Part shown: one piece after another, positions 25,512 to 50,695 of the stretch | How the letters are laid out: the number at the start of each line of letters is the position of its first letter | Numbering within the stretch: the stretch's first letter is position 1 | From: Siphonodentalium dalli | Taxonomy: Eukaryota > Mollusca > Scaphopoda > Gadilida > Siphonodentaliidae | Reading direction: 5' to 3' | DNA: 64,000 nucleotides | NCBI GenBank assembly: GCA_032622095.1 | Contig: CP136063.1 | Coordinates: 62,385,897 to 62,449,896 of the forward strand | Made by a program: the position numbers and the translations under genes | Notes under the pieces: generated by a model | Databases searched by the model: none | What the model was told of the DNA's origin: nothing | The model's input: the letters and a program-made list of their open reading frames with translations, nothing else

Positions 25512-28438
25512 CTACAGAGCAAAGTATAATATTAAACTTTCAACACAATCGCTCAATTTTGCAACAGTTTCATTGTAGTTTGAATAATTTATTCCTAGTG
25601 TATGGCAATATAATTCAAGCAGATGTAGCTTAAAGTTATATGTATGTTGCTGAGATAAATCTCGGTGCAATGGAAGAATGGTGTTGATATGAGCTGATTT
25701 CTTCACATAAACAATTGTCATGAACTTGATGCTCTTGTGGGTAGTAACCTGTCTCTTGCATGACATAGTATGTTGTAACGCCAAAACAATGTCATTAAAA
25801 TTAACTATTCGGCAATATTTACAGAAAAATACTGGCGTTTCATCAGACCTAGGTTGATGGAATGGCTCATGAAATGTTTCCTTCCAATGGTTGAAGAGAC
25901 CTTCCATGTCATTGAACTGCTCTTTACATTCTTTACAAGATTTATCTCTAACAGAGAAAGTGATCTCCTGTCGCCAAGATGCATTACTTATACCATACTC
26001 ACCAGTAAGTTCACCATGCATATGTGAGGTATGTATAGCACACAGAAACGAATTCGAGAAGCACGCTCCACAATAACAACATGATGCAAATCTAGACGAC
26101 TCCAAAGATAGCTTCTTCACTTTGAGTGACATAGGCTTTATAATTCCATTTACAACTAAATCCTGTCCCTTTATATAATAGGTAGAACATTCGCTGGCGG
26201 ATAGATGGCGCTCATAATTCAGGTGACGAAACATCTGTGATCTTTTTTTGAAATTCTTTCCACAGAGGTCACAGGTCGTGGACAATTCATTCTGATGTAT
26301 CCGTAGAAAAGAATCAGATTCTGATATCGCCGATGACTTCTGAACATCCACGTGTTTACTAGATTTATTTGCCTCAGGATGTATAGTGACATCTTCATTG
26401 TCAAGAATTTCACCTTCCTCTGCATCCTTGTTCTTGTCACATAAATTATCCTCTGAGAATATAGCGACGTCGTCATCTGATATTTCCCCTTCTTCCAACC
26501 CATCCCGTTCATTTAATGAAGAATGTCCTGCATTATCACCAGCACAATTAATATTAGAATGTCCTGCGTTATCACCAGCACAATTAATATTAGAATGTCC
26601 TGCGTTATCACCAGCACAATTAATATTAAGTTTGTGAACAGTACTACTGTTAGTTCCTTTGAATGTTGTCGTAATAAGACTGGTTCCTTGACTAGAATCG
26701 CATGCTGTCATATTTACACTGGTTCCCGGATGAAGATTGCATGTTGTCATATTAAGACTAGTTCCTTGGCCAGAATCGCATGCAGTCATTTTTAAACTGG
26801 TTCCTGGATAAGAATTGCATGATGTCATTTTAAGACTGGTTCCTTGACTAGAATTGTGAGCCGTGATATTTACACTGATTTCTGGACAAGAATCCTTGGA
26901 AGACATTGACTTAATCATCTTTTTTACATCCTGTCTCAATTTTTTAACACATGTTTTTATTTTCGAATCTTGGATTATTTGAGGCATTATATCCACTAAT
27001 TTGTTCTCAAATTTTGTAAAAAGTTTATTTCCGTGTCTGGACTTACCAATAAAATGTGGCATAGTCATTGTCGTTTCTGTTGCCCTGGCGATATAAGCGA
27101 CTACGAAGGATAGTACTGGTATATTGTCCGGATCCTTCATGAGGTCTCCTGCCGTTTTGTGGGAAATAAAGTGCTCCAGCATGTCAAAGAAATTATTGAA
27201 GGATCTGAATGAACGAGCTTCATAGGAAAATATTACCTTCTCCGTCTTCCCCGGGCGCTTGTATGGTACATGATGCAACATCTTCCAATGTTCAAACAAG
27301 CTTCCCCTGGTGATAAATCCCTTCTTACATTCAGGACAACTCCTCATAGATGAGTCAACTTTGACAGATTTCCTCCGGAAAACATTTCTAACTCGATAAT
27401 GGTGAGTAGTACTGTTGTGAACCTGTATATTATGTAAGCCACATAGATACGGGTTTGGGAAACCAGCCTCACAAGAGAAGCATGTTACTACGCCATTCGA
27501 GGCTGTTAGTGGTTCCTCATTAATCACAAACATGGGTTGTAATATCCTCACAGTAGACCACTCCTGTCCTGTTTTACAACTCACAGTACACTGGCTGGCA
27601 CTAAAATGATGACACTCGCGTAGATGTTTGACGATCTCATCCTTTTTGGGTGCAGTCTCTAAACAGAAATCACAAAGGAATAAATTAATTGGTATCTCAT
27701 TTATGGGTTTATTAGACTCACACAGCGCTGGTGTTACGGTTTCATCAGTAATCGGTTTATTAGACTCGCACAGCGCTGGTGTTACGGTTTCATCAGTAAT
27801 CGGTTCATTAGACTCGCACAGTGGTGTTACAGTTTCACCAGTAATCGGTTTATTAGACTCGCACAGCGCTGGTGTTACGGTTTCACCAGTAATCGGTTTA
27901 TTAGACTCACTCAGCACTGGTGTAACAGTTTCACCAGTAATCAGTTCATTAGACTCACACAGTGCTGGTGTTATGGTTTCGCCGGTAATGGCTCCATTAG
28001 ACTCACACAGCACTGGTGTCACAGTTTCACCAGTAATCGGTTCAATAGACTCACACAGCGCTGGTGTTATGGTTTTGCCGGTAATGGCTCCATTAGACTC
28101 ACACGGCACTGGTGTCACAGTTTCACCAGTAATCAGTTCATTAGACTCACACGGCACTGGTGTCACAGTGTTATTATTATCAGTATATGATACCTTACCA
28201 CCTAGACAACCCTCCTCAGTTACTACTAGTAACTGTCTAGATTCTGCAGTTTTCATGTTAGACGGAATTCCACCCATTGAGCTTTTCATTTCCCTGTCCT
28301 TTTGGCATTGTTGCTTCATTTCAGTGACTTTCCCCAGATGAGGCTCCTCCTCTGCCTTATCTTTGTCAATTATTCTACCAGCCTGCATTAGTTTGCGATC
28401 TTCTTCTCTTATTCTATTGTCTGCTTGACCAGTTTGAT
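25512..28438 (-). CDS. Zinc-finger repeat protein, 3' coding exon
   Basis: Second coding exon, residues 391-1365, read on the minus strand and ending TAG. A polypyrimidine tract and AG (28440-28439) precede it, and its phase-1 start matches the donor of the upstream exon. In order it holds ten 16-aa CESN-x2-ITGETVTP-x2 repeats (~485-643), a zinc-finger block (~646-815), 13-aa CDSSQGTSLxMT repeats (~910-990), three 12-aa NINCAGDNAGHS repeats, acidic EEGEISDDD/EEGEILDNED tracts, and a second zinc-finger block (~1113-1285). The two blocks are homologous: each has CDxC...H-x3-5-H then (F/L)SAS(Q/E)C, a CxxC...H finger and a C-x2-CK...LF-x-HW-x5-H finger. C2H2-type fingers suggest nucleic-acid binding. 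I do not recognise the family. The open frame continues into intron sequence at 28454, which is not a start. Confidence 0.85.
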
Positions 28439-41244: not shown

Positions 41245-42607
41245 GATAAGATAAGATAAGATAGTTTATTACAATACACCAGTGCAGGCAGTTGCAAATT
41301 TAAATAACATAAAGTACAAGTAAATTAAACATAATACATAATATATGTGCATATAACAGTAAACAAACCTATAACTAGATCATACATACGATTCTTAATG
41401 AAATATAAATTTCCCATAATTTTCATTTCCCCATATTTATATTTGTTCTCCTTTGGAAGAATAACCGGATAATGTTGCACACGGAATTCATAATTACTTC
41501 GTCTTCATTTTTCATTATAAAAATGAATTTATCATCATCGTTCATGTTTGTAAAGTGTATGTTATTAGTGTTAGCAACATCAAATAATTCTTTCCTGAGG
41601 TCAGTGTACGCACTGCATTCCATTATGAAATGTTTTTCAGTTTCAACTTTTTTCCCATCACACATGAGACAAATTCTGTCTTTTAATAACGTCTTTGGTT
41701 GTGTGTGTCGGCCTTTTTCTATAGCTAATATATGATTGCTAACACGCAGTAGGGTGAACATTTCTCTTGCCGTTGGTGATCGGACGTGTTTGAGGTATGG
41801 TTCTATTTCATATTTGTCTTTGAACGTTCTATATGTTCGTAGTTTATTAGCACCATTCTTTTTGTCGTCATCGAATATATCTTTTTTGAAATTATTTACA
41901 TGTTGTGATTTTAGTCTCTCTATTATAAGTTTGTCGGTGAATCCTATCGTTTTATTAGACTGTGATATATTGATACCTCTTTTTGCAAGATGTGTGTCCC
42001 ACGTTGGAAGATTACATAATAGAGATTCTGTGAACGAATCATGTATTATATTTCCCGGTTGTGCAAAACGAAGTTTATTTAGATATTTGAACCTATTCCC
42101 GATGGCATTAACTGCTATGGGGTATCGACCTAGTTCAGCCCTCGAAGCATGATTTGACGCTTTTCTATTGAGTTGTAGTATATTTTTACAGAACTTTAAA
42201 TGTGTCTGCTCAAGAGGGTAGTTATCAACAAACGGAAATTCCAATTCAGCAGCCCATATTTCGCAACCATACAACAGAATAGGCATTATTAATTTGTCAA
42301 ACAATTTACATTTAGTACTGAGAGACAATTCTGTCTGTGAATTCAATGAATTCGTCATGAAATACATAGCCTTTGAAGCTCGCCCGCTCAAGTTTTCACA
42401 AGCTCTCTCCATTTTACCGTCAAAACTGAAAATGAGACCCAAGTATTTATATTCTTCAAATACTTCTTAACGACTCACCATTTATATAAAACTTATTTAT
42501 GATAGCATGCTGTTTACACGATGAACGAAACTGTATGCGTTTTAGTGTTTTTCTGTTTACGGTGATTGGAACAAATATGAATATTTTCGACAACTAAGGC
42601 CTCCCGT
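41245..42607 (-). mobile_element. 5'-truncated non-LTR retrotransposon
   Basis: The 3' end is a (TTATC)n tail (41245-41262 on the plus strand reads GATAAGATAAGATAAG). Flanks share GTCTTTAA (41237-41244, 42608-42615), a plausible target duplication. It contains the C-terminal part of a reverse-transcriptase protein. Truncation at the 5' end is usual for this class. Confidence 0.8.
41423..42565 (-). pseudogene. Reverse transcriptase C-terminal fragment
   Basis: An open frame of about 345 codons (41423 to about 42465) begins just after a stop and carries KYLGLIFSFDGK, the LLYGCEIWA motif that follows the reverse-transcriptase domain, KFCKNILQLNRKASNHA, and a C-terminal CLMCDG...TEKHFIMEC zinc-knuckle-like motif. 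This order is typical of Jockey/CR1/I-group non-LTR proteins. A one-base frameshift near 42470 separates it from a further upstream piece (to ~42565). The catalytic FADD region and endonuclease lie beyond the truncation, so it is inactive. Confidence 0.85.
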
Positions 42608-44147: not shown

Positions 44148-44255
44148 GATAAATGTATGTTTCATAGGAGTGCCTGTATTTCTGGACATCTTGGGATATA
44201 CGATCACGTCAGTAGTATACGTATGGACCGTAGGACGGCGACATGTCACTCTATC

Positions 44256-44792
44256 AGGTCAGGGAGAACCCAAAATCAATGTACTAAACCTCGATTTGTG
44301 TAAAAAACCTTGATCAAGGTTCTTCGAGACCATGTGACCACTGGTGATATCAGCCCTTTTAATTCAGATTGTTTGGCTTCGGCAATCTGCTACGGCAACC
44401 CTTTATCATGGCCCAGTTTGCTTCAGCAAATGGCTTCGGCATTGCTGATTGCCGTAGCCGATTATGAGGGCTGTGATATAGTGTGGAGTATTTCATCTTA
44501 CACCTATGGGAGGCCAAATTCACATTTAATAATTAATTGTGCTTGATTGCGCTTAAGCACAATTAATTATTAAATGTGAATTTGCATGGCCTCCCAGGTG
44601 TAAGATGAAATACTCCACACTATATCACTTACACTATATTACTTCCATTAGTATCATATTTGGTTTAGAGTGTTTCCCCTTATATCATGGGTGTATGTTT
44701 TGACCAGTAATCACATGGTCTCGAAGAACCTCGATCTAGGTTTTTCACACAAATCGAGGTTTAGTACATCGATTTTGGGTTCTCCCTGTCCT
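44256..44792. mobile_element. Foldback element with ~85-bp TIRs
   Basis: TIR AGGTCAGGGAGAACCCAAAA... through CTTCGAGACCATGTGA, complemented at 44712-44792. A second, inner palindrome (about 44475-44640) is centred on GCGCTTAAGCAC and contains GGGAGGCC and TTCACATTTAATAATTAA. These words are shared with the foldback at 57635. Confidence 0.8.
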
Positions 44793-44799
44793 GTCTATG

Positions 44800-44846
44800 T
44801 CCAAAGGTTCGCTATTCCCAAGGTTCATTATACCGAAGTTTCGTTA
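44800..44846 (+). repeat. 16-bp minisatellite, left part of split block
   Basis: Units AAGGTTCGCTATTCCC, AAGGTTCATTATACCG and AAGTTTCGTTA. The block is cut by the transposon at 44847 and resumes at 50170 in register. Confidence 0.8.
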
Positions 44847-44886
44847 GGCCACGGTTAATTAATCTTCAGTTTAGCGTTATTCTAAG

Positions 44887-46488
44887 ATCTCAGAACAAAA
44901 TGCGGAATGAGGTAAATATTAATTATTAATTATTTTCACATGGAGAATACGCTGCATTGTATTGAGTACTATCAGATGCATTGTATTCCATTAAACACCT
45001 ATATATTGCCTAATAAGCCTTCCTTTCATGGTTATGTATAATGTGGAAGTAAAGAACAGAACTGTATTAAACTTGCAATGCTTTTAATTTGCAGCTAGTG
45101 CAGAACCAGTCATTGTCTACCAGTGGACCACAGATTTGTACCATGTGATGTCGTACGTCATGATGTATCAGTATACTATAAGTTATTCATTTCGCAGACG
45201 AGATACATGGGTTTATATTCCCCTCATGGAGTTAATATCCAATCAATGGTGGAGCCCATGTATCCAGTCCCCCAAATGAATAACGTATTTGTGACAATTT
45301 TGTGTACCGAATGTTTTTTTTATTTATGTCATACCTTCGAGACATATTAAATTATATGGACACCCCAACTAGTTAATAATTGTGTTTGGTGGGTTTAGTG
45401 AACTGTCTACCTAGGCGAGGCAGTCGGTGGTCTGTGGATGGTACTGCTGGATGTTTACAACCACATGGTGGACAAGTAAATAATTATCTACCACCGAAAC
45501 CGGATGTTTACAACTACACAGTAGACATGGAATAATTGTCCAATGTGTGTTTGTATTAAACATCCAGTTTTGGTGTCGGTCTGACATTTAATTTGATATA
45601 AAAATAATATGCATGATTGCATGTATAAATTGACCAATCACAATCCAAGATTAATATTACATGAGTTACACAACATATTTATATGTTGCCAACAGTGTGT
45701 TTGCACTTTTAACAATAACACAATTAACTGAACATCGTCACTACCTCGCCTTTCGTTAATACTAAAACATGCACATTAGAGTACTAGTGTGTGAGTTTAA
45801 TAAAGTGCCAATATATTCTGTCATCCCTCATGGAGTGATGGGAAAGATACAATCTGGAGTATAAATTATTTTTAATTAATCAATACTCAACTTAATATTA
45901 AATACTGAACAGTTCATAAAATATAACTTATAATTTGCAACATGTATTTATTGAAACGTTAAAACATTAAACTCCGAAAACACAAAGGAGACTATTATTA
46001 GGTCTTGCGTAGGTATTGTAACTGGTATTATAACTATGTATATTTTATGCTGATACTATAAAGATGCTATATATAGGCACATTCCACAATAAAGTTAATT
46101 CATTCATTCAATTATACCGGTAGTTACTTTCATACAGAGACCAGCAACCCCTCAGAGAGAGTTTAGCTTGGTTATAGCCCATACTGACTCCAGTTGTTAC
46201 CAGAGGGGCTGCCGGAAACTGTATGAAAGGAACCACAATACAAATTATATATGATAGTATTTGATCATCGTATATCAGAATATTTTAAAAGTTTAATATA
46301 ATACTGGTTACAATACCTATGTAGGATGACTAGGATCTTGCTTACATTTCAATATTTATGTGTATACATTTCAATATTACATTATTAATTCAAAGACAAA
46401 GACGTGAAAGTGCATTGAACTAATCAAGTGTACCCTGCATGATTGTTCATCTAGAGCGGGAACATATGTGCATAAAAACATCACAAGT
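44887..46488. other. Non-coding left portion of the DDE transposon
   Basis: 1.6 kb between the left TIR and the ORF stop, presumably 3' untranslated. The frame at 45123-45350 shows no domain. Confidence 0.45.
46011..46318. repeat. Foldback nested in the DDE transposon
   Basis: AGGTATTGTAACTGGTATTAT (46011) and its complement ending 46318. An inner inverted pair, TTACTTTCATACAG / CTGTATGAAAGGAA, lies around 46130-46235. Non-coding. Confidence 0.6.
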
Positions 46489-49400
46489 TCACAACTGGAA
46501 TTTATCGTGCTTGCGTTTTTGTTTATGTACAGGTTGTTTCCCTCGAGATGAACAACCACTGCAAATGGGATAATGGCCGTCTTGTGTTTTTAATTTCCGC
46601 TTAGTCCCACAATGGATACAGCATGCGGGATACAATCCACTAGTGTAATATAGAACCTCTACTGGGGTTAAACATGTAAGATTCTTTCTGACAAATAATT
46701 TCTCCATTGATTCGCTTCTTCCTTCAGCAGGGAACTCATTTAAAGTAGCCCCGCATGTAAACATGACATTTCCCATGACATACTTGAAATGTTTCACATC
46801 GTGCTTGTCAATTACAAATTTTGAATACACTACTCTCAATTTATCACATTCAGAGCAACATACTGTCAACTTTGTGTTGGTAGCATGTTGCTTGAGTGGA
46901 TTAAATGGAATGCAGTGCCCTTTTGTGGAAGTGACATTTGATGGCTTGTATTTCTCAGATGTATCTTTGCCATACGAGTCACCAAATGACATGTAATGAC
47001 TTGCATCGATTTCTGATGGCACAGGATCAGGTAAATTATGCAACCTTTCAAATACATCATTGGGAAGCCTCACTGGTTTACATGTAGTGCATGATTTATC
47101 ACCACATTTCTTACTTGAGAAATGATAGGTCCGTTCTTTACAGCAGTGTTTGAGGTAAGAATTGAGTTTGGGTCGATTCTTCAAATCCTGCATATTATCC
47201 ATGGGTTCTAAATCATTGTCAAGACCAATTGACGCAAACAACTTATCAATATCAGACTGGTCAGCAGGTGAATCGACAATAAATTGCTCGTCTTTCAATT
47301 TCAAAGACTTAAAGTTATTTGAAATTAGTTGAATACATGGATCGCATGATTTCTGAAAATTTTCTTTGAATTGCTTGCTTTTATCAGCCAGACCCCTAAT
47401 ATCATCTGTGCCATTAGCACGTGAGATTTCCTTTTCAAATTCTGGATCGGACTTACTTCGCATAACACCGATATTGTACAAACCCAAGTTCAAAATACAA
47501 TTAACCCTCTCGGCCGGATTGCAATAGGAATGACCAGGAGCTGTTCTGGCCAACACAATTAAATCTAAATCTAAGTATTTCTGTAAAGCAATTGCAGCAA
47601 TTTTGACACTCAAGAAGTTGGTCCTATGCTCTGGGCCACCATCTGTGTACAGAACCAAAATAGGAGGCACATTTTGCTTCCCATTGTGTTTCTTAATCAG
47701 AATTTTTGCTATTTCGGTAGCATTTCTCAAAGCCGTAGATGAACACAGTGCAGTCGTCTTGAGGATGATATGTGGAGAACCCCTATACCATGACCCATCC
47801 ACATCTACCGGTATTTTATTCAAAAGGATCACAGTTGGAGTCAGCGCGACTTTTGAAAAATCATGATCGCCAACTTCAAATGTTTGATTTAATGAAACCA
47901 ATACCCTTTTCCCCCTCTCTTGAGCGGCAAGGGGGTACCCTGGTTCACCAATGGATATTTTATGCTTGTCATCAGTCGATATAAAAGTGGTATGATCCGA
48001 AAATGTGACAGCAAGACTTTTGGCATACTTAAAGATTGCGGCGCAGTAATGGTCATCTGGGTGTGACTTACGGAATTGTCTTTGTTGAATCATATATTTG
48101 ACTTTCAATTTGCCTGTGTAATTTAATGCACTATGAGTAGTTGGATCTTTGGGCCAGAACTGGAACTTAAACCATGAAAAGGATGGAATATCGTCTTGTA
48201 ATAAGTCGTTACTCAGAGCTTTGGATTTACATTTTTCATACAAATTTGGCGCTGAAATTGCCACACCCATATGAGTTACTACATTGCCATCATCCGAGAC
48301 CTGACCATGACGGCGTTCATCTACAGCACTAAGTTCCTCGATTATGGTTTCACATATTGACCAAAACTTGTCAAATTTTGGCGTACGCCCATTGTTTATT
48401 CTGAGGTCCTTCAGAATAGAACATTTGCCTTGCTTATATATAAGTTTGAACCTTTCATCTACATCTTTTGCTACCTTATCTGTAGACACAGTACAATCAC
48501 CGGTGAGCTCTTTGTATATAAATCTAAATTCACCCGGCGTTATTCTATCAAACATAACCAATTCCATGAGATGTTTACATTTTGATTTGTATGATTTAGA
48601 AAAATATTTTGGCAAATTGTCTTTTATTTCAGATATAGTATTCGCTCGTAGCGTATCGGTTGCAGATTGGTCACTCCGATCTTCCTTCCATATGAAGTAG
48701 GTAGTTCCCTTGGAGCCACCATAGTTTTGTCCAAATAAAACTGAATCGGTTTGCAGACCCTTCTGTCTCAGGCGCCTCAAGAATGAGAACCGCAAATGCC
48801 TCTTTCTTGGAACGAGTTCATCCAAACACAATGGCTCGTAGAACTCATTCACATGCAAGTTGTCCTCAATCTCATTGACAAGTTCCAAGTCATGTTTTTT
48901 GTACACCAGAGATAATTCGTCCACTTTCGGTAAAACACAGACAGTGTTCAGTGTAGTGTGGAGATCTTGTTCGTCATCGTCTGGACTCACAGCTGCATCA
49001 TCTGCTTGTTCGGCAAGATATTCTGAGTATTTGGTACACGATTCAAACAGGTTTTCGATTGCATCTCTGGCTGGCTTGAATGTTTTTAGTTCGATGAATG
49101 AACGGCTGAAATCGTTCTGAACTTTCCCCAGAAGCTCCAGCAGAAGTTCGTTCTTTATGTTCTTCGTTGTGTGTTTATGACGTTCAGGGTTATTGAGTTT
49201 GGTCAGTTTTTGAAACATATCGGACAACGAACAACCCCTCGACTTCAGTTTAGAAGCATGTGGCGCGACGTACCATAGCAGGTCTCTGAGGCTGATCAGG
49301 AATGACGAAAAGGCGTTCAAGTCTTGGTTCCGGACACCAGGGATGATGGTTTTCAATTCAATAATTATAGCATCGAACATGATGGTTTTCCCGGTGCCCA

Positions 49401-49935
49401 GATTGTTAATAGTATCAAGAATGTTGTCATTGTCATGAAGAAGGAAGTCTGCCAGCTTCTGGATATCGGTCTCTTTTAATTTGGTGAGTTTCGGCCAGTA
49501 ATTTGGCCGAACGGAATTTTGCATCAGAACATCAGTAATTGTTCTTGGTTTATTTATAACTTCATTTTCTTCGGTCGTACTAGCAGAGTTAATATCACTC
49601 AGTCGGACTCTTATGTGGAGCAATTTGTTTTCCGCAACATCTGTCCGTAATTCTGACAACAGTATTTCGTCCAAGGACCCGGTGTCCAATATCTGCATTT
49701 CAGTCCAGTCGCCGCCACCGACTTCGACCTTGGACACCGCATCCATTTTTTCCATCAACGAACCATCGTCTAAACGAATAGACGTGATGAAGCTCTGGAT
49801 TGTAGTCTCCCCACTGCATGTTGTAATTTTCGACCGGTATCTGTCCGGTATATGTAACTTTATCAACATTTTGCGCTTTTTAAATCTTTCATGACATACA
49901 TCGAATTGTGGAAAGGGAAATGGCGACCATGCCAA
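46489..49935 (-). CDS. Putative DDE transposase (1148 aa), unclassified
   Basis: Single uninterrupted ORF. Residues ~24-113 look like a beta-grasp/ubiquitin-like fold (IKLHIPDRY...LLHIRVRLSD). The middle is helical. Residues ~600-830 form a candidate RNase H-like core: ISTDDKHK (D655/D656), LYTDGGPEHR (D765) and CNPAERVN (E809), spaced about D-109-D-43-E, with conserved-looking GEPGYPLAAQERGKR and GSWYRG between. The C-terminus has three Cys clusters: CCKERT...CGDKSCTTC (~928-950), CCSEC (~1024) and a zinc-ribbon-like CIHC...CSGC (~1105-1131). Similar unnamed predicted proteins exist, as I recall, in sponges and cnidarians, but I cannot verify this. ATG at 49935 is the first; Met23 is a plausible alternative. 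It sits in the TIR/TTA-bounded element, so a transposase role is well supported by context, and catalysis is inferred from the triad. Confidence 0.8.
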   Translation of the reverse strand: MAWSPFPFPQFDVCHERFKKRKMLIKLHIPDRYRSKITTCSGETTIQSFITSIRLDDGSLMEKMDAVSKVEVGGGDWTEMQILDTGSLDEILLSELRTDVAENKLLHIRVRLSDINSASTTEENEVINKPRTITDVLMQNSVRPNYWPKLTKLKETDIQKLADFLLHDNDNILDTINNLGTGKTIMFDAIIIELKTIIPGVRNQDLNAFSSFLISLRDLLWYVAPHASKLKSRGCSLSDMFQKLTKLNNPERHKHTTKNIKNELLLELLGKVQNDFSRSFIELKTFKPARDAIENLFESCTKYSEYLAEQADDAAVSPDDDEQDLHTTLNTVCVLPKVDELSLVYKKHDLELVNEIEDNLHVNEFYEPLCLDELVPRKRHLRFSFLRRLRQKGLQTDSVLFGQNYGGSKGTTYFIWKEDRSDQSATDTLRANTISEIKDNLPKYFSKSYKSKCKHLMELVMFDRITPGEFRFIYKELTGDCTVSTDKVAKDVDERFKLIYKQGKCSILKDLRINNGRTPKFDKFWSICETIIEELSAVDERRHGQVSDDGNVVTHMGVAISAPNLYEKCKSKALSNDLLQDDIPSFSWFKFQFWPKDPTTHSALNYTGKLKVKYMIQQRQFRKSHPDDHYCAAIFKYAKSLAVTFSDHTTFISTDDKHKISIGEPGYPLAAQERGKRVLVSLNQTFEVGDHDFSKVALTPTVILLNKIPVDVDGSWYRGSPHIILKTTALCSSTALRNATEIAKILIKKHNGKQNVPPILVLYTDGGPEHRTNFLSVKIAAIALQKYLDLDLIVLARTAPGHSYCNPAERVNCILNLGLYNIGVMRSKSDPEFEKEISRANGTDDIRGLADKSKQFKENFQKSCDPCIQLISNNFKSLKLKDEQFIVDSPADQSDIDKLFASIGLDNDLEPMDNMQDLKNRPKLNSYLKHCCKERTYHFSSKKCGDKSCTTCKPVRLPNDVFERLHNLPDPVPSEIDASHYMSFGDSYGKDTSEKYKPSNVTSTKGHCIPFNPLKQHATNTKLTVCCSECDKLRVVYSKFVIDKHDVKHFKYVMGNVMFTCGATLNEFPAEGRSESMEKLFVRKNLTCLTPVEVLYYTSGLYPACCIHCGTKRKLKTQDGHYPICSGCSSRGKQPVHKQKRKHDKFQL

Positions 49936-50169
49936 CGGAAACCACCGAACACTTCCGGACTAACGCGATCGTAAAATATACGTTCCGGTCAGCCGGTTAT
50001 ATCCGGTATCGCGTATTTCGATGACATTCGATCGCCCGATGTGTGAAAACTAATCGTGCAATGGAAATGACGCTTGCCGAACCAATAATAATTTAAAATG
50101 CGGTATTATTTTGGACAAAAAACGAAATGCGGCGGATAACGCTAAAATGAAGATTAATTAATTACGGCC

Positions 50170-50220
50170 TTATTCCCAAGGTTCTCTATATTCCTCGATA
50201 TTAAGAAGGTTTTTATAACT
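50170..50220 (+). repeat. 16-bp minisatellite, right part of split block
   Basis: TTATTCCCAAGGTTCTCTAT continues the 44800-44846 block, then degenerates. Confidence 0.7.
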
Positions 50221-50530: not shown

Positions 50531-50585
50531 ATAATAACTACTTGGTATTAGAGTTGTCCATCTTTTCTGGTTAAATACGCCCAGA

Positions 50586-50695
50586 ATAGCAAACCTTCAG
50601 AATAGCGAACCTTCTGAATAAGGACCTTTGGAATAGCGACCCTTCGGAATATGGAACCTTGAACTTCGGAATAATGAACCCGATCCTGTATGAAG
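50586..50695 (-). repeat. 16-bp minisatellite, inverted block
   Basis: Units such as GAATAGCGAACCTTC and GGAATAGCGACCCTTC are the reverse complement of the 44800/50170 repeat, about six copies. Confidence 0.8.

Follow-up and report, generated by a model that had tools for sequence, protein, structure and literature searches.

Organization of the transposon locus

We analysed a 64,000-nucleotide stretch of Siphonodentalium dalli DNA (the window; C3:62385897-62449896 of a searched genome of 2.23 Gb in nine contigs), in which a DNA transposon with a single long open reading frame (ORF) occupies positions 44847-50169. The transposon was found to be complete and recently mobile, and its transposase lineage occurs in five or more young families within this one genome. 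The element is delimited by the following features.

44847..50169, minus strand: whole element, 5323 bp, with GGCC ends; five other copies with both ends are 99.74-99.94% identical to it at the DNA level
44844..44846, no strand: left target-site duplication, TTA
50170..50172, no strand: right target-site duplication, TTA
44847..44880, plus strand: left terminal inverted repeat (TIR), GGCCACGG..., identical to the right one at 29 of 34 positions
50136..50169, minus strand: right TIR

The first-pass annotation of this DNA had placed the element, with its GGCC ends and a TTA on both sides, at the same boundaries. It had described the 34-bp TIRs as exact, which is not correct, as mismatches were present at positions 5-8 and 23. 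The inner 26 bp common to both TIRs occurred twice in the window, with 0.00 occurrences expected by chance. When the flanks of the element were joined, a 16-bp AAGGTTCGTTATTCCG-like repeat unit was restored in phase with its neighbour, as judged by eye; the place of insertion and the duplication of 3 bp thus have a basis beyond the TIRs. The AAGGTTCGTTATTCCG-like repeat had seven matches in the window against a shuffle mean of 0.36, and its copies lie in the left flank (44804-44840, two copies, plus strand) and in the right flank (50582-50682, five copies, minus strand), as if the transposon sat inside another, non-autonomous inverted-repeat element.

Copies and families in the genome

A protein search of the genome scored 41 of 758 candidates, so the copy counts are lower bounds, and the DNA stretches around 20 of the 41 matching places were examined. 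At least seven places, including the window, carried the whole 1126-aa ORF with no stops. The recent activity proposed in the first-pass annotation is borne out, and near-identical complete copies reside in the same genome. One copy (L013) had lost its right end, while L015 (positions 1178-2805) was a 1628-bp internally deleted derivative that kept both ends and had its own TTA duplication; it is a non-autonomous offspring of the family of the window element. Among the seven copies with the full-length ORF, L012 was apparently altered in its motif at the second catalytic Asp, as two motif searches failed there, and a long open frame alone is therefore no sign of an active copy.

Four further young families were identified, whose proteins are 35-38% identical to the window transposase. 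Each was bounded by comparing its own copies (99.5-99.8% identical), and the ends were set at the GGCC nearest to the DNA-alignment border, 0-16 bp away, so that the GGCC in these four families arises partly by construction.

Inspection of the flanks of other copies had been proposed as a check on the element. Among the 17 copies from five families with both ends readable, the 3-bp flanks were identical in 16 and were TTA or TAA in 15. The script itself scored 15 of 17, having missed L023 through an overlapping GGCC that was taken as the end; by eye, its flanks were TAA/TAA. The flanks of L011 were AAA/AAA, those of L025 were TTA and TAA and disagreed, and L013, L016, L017 and L028 were left out of the count because the position of one end or of both was uncertain. 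The element families thus show the 3-bp duplication that is a trait of ISAzo13/Zator, and 15 of the 17 copies show the TWA duplication that is a trait of PIF/Harbinger. Ends, transposase type and target are common to at least five young families in the genome.

Transposase protein and predicted catalytic core

The features of the transposase, all on the minus strand, are listed below.

46489..49869, minus strand: transposase ORF, 1126 aa plus stop, a single open frame from the first ATG
47284..48081, minus strand: predicted RNase H-like catalytic core, residues about 597-862
47971..47973, minus strand: codon of D633, putative first catalytic Asp, aligned with an Asp of ISAzo13
47641..47643, minus strand: codon of D743, putative second catalytic Asp, in TDGGPEH
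47509..47511, minus strand: codon of E787, putative catalytic Glu, in NPAER
46492..47202, minus strand: C-terminal cysteine-rich region, residues 890-1126
46753..46857, minus strand: CW-like stretch C1005-C1008...C1039, with no W in the window copy
46552..46620, minus strand: zinc-ribbon-like C1084-C1087...C1103-C1106, with conserved cysteines

An intact long ORF had been recognized before, and its presence is confirmed; the length of 1148 aa then given fits neither the count from the ATG nor that from stop to stop (1156 codons). The triad named at that time, D655-D765-E809, corresponds to D633-D743-E787 once 22 is subtracted from each number, and 55, 54 and 54 of the 56 proteins in the alignment, respectively, retain these residues. 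D634 was as conserved as D633. The structure prediction that had been suggested as a further check gave an RNase H fold for the core, with Mos1 as the nearest solved structure.

The proposed ubiquitin-like N-terminus could not be confirmed in the window copy, as residues 1-110 were predicted without strands and with a predicted local distance difference test score (pLDDT) of about 30; a PB1 match was found in one of 22 relatives (E 0.022). The zinc-ribbon-like motif proposed for the C-terminus was supported by the conserved cysteines and by a confident predicted model, since the C-terminal region folded alone reached a pLDDT of 89.7. This model had no Foldseek match below E 0.87, which is no proof of a new fold. 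In the Pfam scan, zf-CW matched six of 22 family members (best E 9.1e-5) and did not match the window transposase. CW domains carry a tryptophan ahead of the first Cys, and we do not claim a histone reader role for the CW-like stretch because this tryptophan is absent from the window copy. The longest other ORF in 44847-46489, in a survey of long unspliced frames, was 83 codons.

Relationship of the core to ISAzo13

No transposase match above the cut-off was obtained from Pfam (scans of 22 and 7 members) or NCBIfam (18 members), which agrees with the earlier view that the protein is not that of Harbinger, and a PDB sequence search likewise returned no transposase above the cut-off. PF07592 is the family from which Zator was derived. 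It matched none of the 22 members at E<=1, and NF033519 matched one of 18 (E 0.077, below the cut-off); the element was therefore not placed in the ISAzo13 family proper. PF07592 also had no match in the genome of S. dalli itself, a weak answer given that none of 14 control genomes matched either.

For the profile comparison, the ISAzo13 profile was built from five proteins, trimmed to the matching part, from nine loci; L033 (a fragment), L035 (split), and L036 and L037 (without an annotated transposase) did not contribute. The whole-protein profile scored 82.2% against ISAzo13, while the core profile scored 92.2% with 56 sequences and 90.6% with 18, and the alignment ran through the three acidic residues together with the HPD and HDF motifs. 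With the same two sequence sets, the core scored 1.5 and 0.5% against IS630, 0.3 and 0.3% against IS5, 0.3 and 0.1% against IS21, and 0.1 and 0.1% against IS66, the IS21 and IS66 profiles consisting of two sequences each. As controls, 100 column-shuffled versions of the core reached at most 5.9%, and reversing the core gave 0.1%. In the reciprocal direction, ISAzo13 against the core gave 95.6%, and 92.4% was obtained from the 50 sequences left after omission of the window protein and the five relatives nearest to it. Without one divergent ISAzo13 protein, however, the score dropped to 62.8%, whereas omission of any other single ISAzo13 protein gave 88.6-94.6%. As yardsticks, ISAzo13-IS630 scored 96.1%, IS630-IS5 79.6% and ISAzo13-IS5 0.7%, so that the lineage is about as close to ISAzo13 as the latter is to IS630. 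Taken with the duplication length and the predicted fold, the profile comparison supports an assignment of the transposase to the DDE enzymes of the ISAzo13/Zator branch.

Relatives and phylogeny

The protein family comprised 98 database proteins and that of the window. Relatives with named sources came from a sponge, an amphioxus, an acorn worm, a clam and perhaps a fungus, and none is characterized. A search with the core region alone gave 55 matches; with the whole protein, 7987 candidates were scored and none matched at E<=0.001, a probable cause being that the search words came from the poorly conserved N-terminal half. Peptide-pattern scans, a method that is not very sensitive, found no relative in IMG/VR contigs and no prokaryotic relative in GTDB contigs.

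A tree was built from 95 family sequences and five ISAzo13 proteins, after removal of P0028 and P0062, which lack the motif used for cutting, and of sequences that were too short. The family formed one clade (support 0.942). The ISAzo13 proteins did not (0.274), and the rooting is therefore unsure. We also observed a second clade, P0055-P0097 (support 0.979), with proteins of up to 1623 aa that contain the DDK, DGG and E motifs and in which N mostly replaces the T/S ahead of DGG.

Classification and proposed mechanism

Most likely, the element is an autonomous DNA transposon that moves by cut and paste and whose lineage belongs to the ISAzo13/Zator branch of the DDE transposases. Its protein of 1126 aa would probably bind the subterminal TTAATTAATCTTCA(G/T)TTTAGCG motif at both ends through its N-terminal helical part, its cysteine-rich C-terminal part or both. 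Cleavage at the GGCC ends may then be carried out by the DD43E active site, for which the fold is predicted and the triad is conserved, and insertion into TWA with a 3-bp stagger, followed by repair, would yield the TTA/TAA duplications that were seen.

How this lineage should be named is less certain. It may be a large, diverged member of the already known Zator as Repbase defines it, a reading to which we give somewhat less than even weight. Both 3-bp duplications and kinship to ISAzo13 are Zator traits according to PMC10045372 and PMC5718144, and Zator is reported in bivalves (PMC10294476), while a clam has a relative of the window protein. The lack of PF07592 matches in the members speaks against membership, and its lack in the genome does so weakly for the reason given above. 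The lineage could instead be a separate, unnamed superfamily beside ISAzo13/Zator that acquired its Harbinger-like GGCC/TWA ends by convergence, which we regard as a tentative option. Its ISAzo13 score of 92-96% is close to the score of ISAzo13 with IS630, two groups classed as distinct families; the GTDB pattern scan showed no prokaryotic relative; and the protein of 1.1 kaa ends in a region for which Foldseek gave no match below E 0.87. However, Zator is known here by description only, the pattern scans are not very sensitive and the literature search was limited. The first-pass annotation had also suggested a distinct superfamily: such a superfamily is possible, but it would not be isolated, as its core aligns with that of ISAzo13, which is Zator's counterpart in bacteria. 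In its fullest form, which we find rather doubtful, a superfamily would descend from an ancestor resembling ISAzo13, would have acquired a large helical part at the N-terminus and, at the C-terminus, a cysteine-rich part with no good PDB match, would have converged on the ends and target of Harbinger, and would have spread in sponges, molluscs, hemichordates, chordates and perhaps fungi, staying mobile until recently.

A PIF/Harbinger transposon with an extreme transposase would account for the GGCC ends and the TWA duplication. This reading is improbable, since no DDE_Tnp_4 match was found in 22 members (E<=1) or in seven (E<=0.1), the IS5 profile scored 0.3% and the 3' region has no second ORF of more than 83 codons. 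Nor was the related suggestion of a Harbinger relative with a replaced transposase supported: the GGCC/TWA ends accompany the same transposase type in five families, so these ends belong to the lineage. The intact ORF might also be that of a domesticated host gene with fortuitous repeats, but seven near-identical dispersed ORF copies with their own target duplications, together with the deleted derivative L015, refute this.

Transposons, and short non-autonomous ones above all, are often classed by their ends and duplications alone (PMC4455052). Since GGCC/TWA, read as Harbinger, is coupled in five families to a transposase from a different branch, such class calls may err. If the lineage is a separate superfamily, it could include elements that were assigned to Harbinger solely on their ends. 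A profile built from the protein family would name many uncharacterized proteins, and with several copies nearly identical, an activity test becomes feasible.

Other features of the window

An adjoining foldback element at 44255-44793 consists of 98-bp inverted repeats (90%) around a nested pair of perfect inverted repeats, whose arms measure 33 and 30 bp. Two other long ORFs were judged by eye: that at 25512-28388 (958 aa) may contain stretches that are repeated or zinc-finger-like, and that at 41423-42412 (329 aa) appears to resemble the end of a reverse transcriptase.

Comparison with known systems

Several DDE superfamilies were set aside by their signatures. The hAT, Kolobok, MuDR, P and Dada transposases carry C/DxxH between the second D and E (PMC10045372), and no C/DxxH is present in residues 744-786 of the window protein. 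CMC and Transib have C(2)C and H(3-4)H in that interval (PMC12730594), where the window protein has only one Cys. Zisupton (KDZ) yields 8-bp duplications (PMC12730594), in contrast to the 3 bp seen here. A limited literature search for 'DD43E' with transposon and transposase found no paper.

PIF/Harbinger elements share the TWA duplication, their ends usually start with A or G, and most, though not all, have a Myb/SANT partner (PMC4482050); the shared duplication and this usual partner account for the earlier Harbinger idea. They differ from the window element in their transposase profile, and the window element has one long ORF with no Myb/SANT partner seen among long unspliced frames.

Within Tc1/mariner, Mos1 has the nearest solved fold to the window core, although Mos1 chains are about 340 aa and the IS630 profile match is low. 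Tc1/mariner elements have a TA duplication and a shorter spacing. The 3-bp duplications of the copies do not agree with TA.

The closest likeness is to ISAzo13 (PF07592, 'TP36'), a group of bacterial insertion sequences whose transposases show the same motif order (HPD, D-x-K, HDF, DGG or DxG, N-x-x-E). The gap from the second D to E is 42 in one ISAzo13 protein against 43 in the window transposase. The annotated ISAzo13 proteins are about 400-700 aa, compared with 1126 aa here, and PF07592 gives no score on the window protein. PMC10045372 describes 3-bp duplications for ISAzo13, as in the window element, and for the eukaryotic Zator, which resembles ISAzo13; Zator, compared by literature description and not by sequence, has both traits in common with the element. 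Zator and TP36 are handled as separate clades near IS630 and Tc1/mariner (PMC7386202, PMC8533490). These published statements fit both the fold, which is like that of Mos1, and the duplication of 3 bp seen here. The element is best read as a member of the ISAzo13/Zator branch, of a lineage that is large and cysteine-rich and has Harbinger-like ends.
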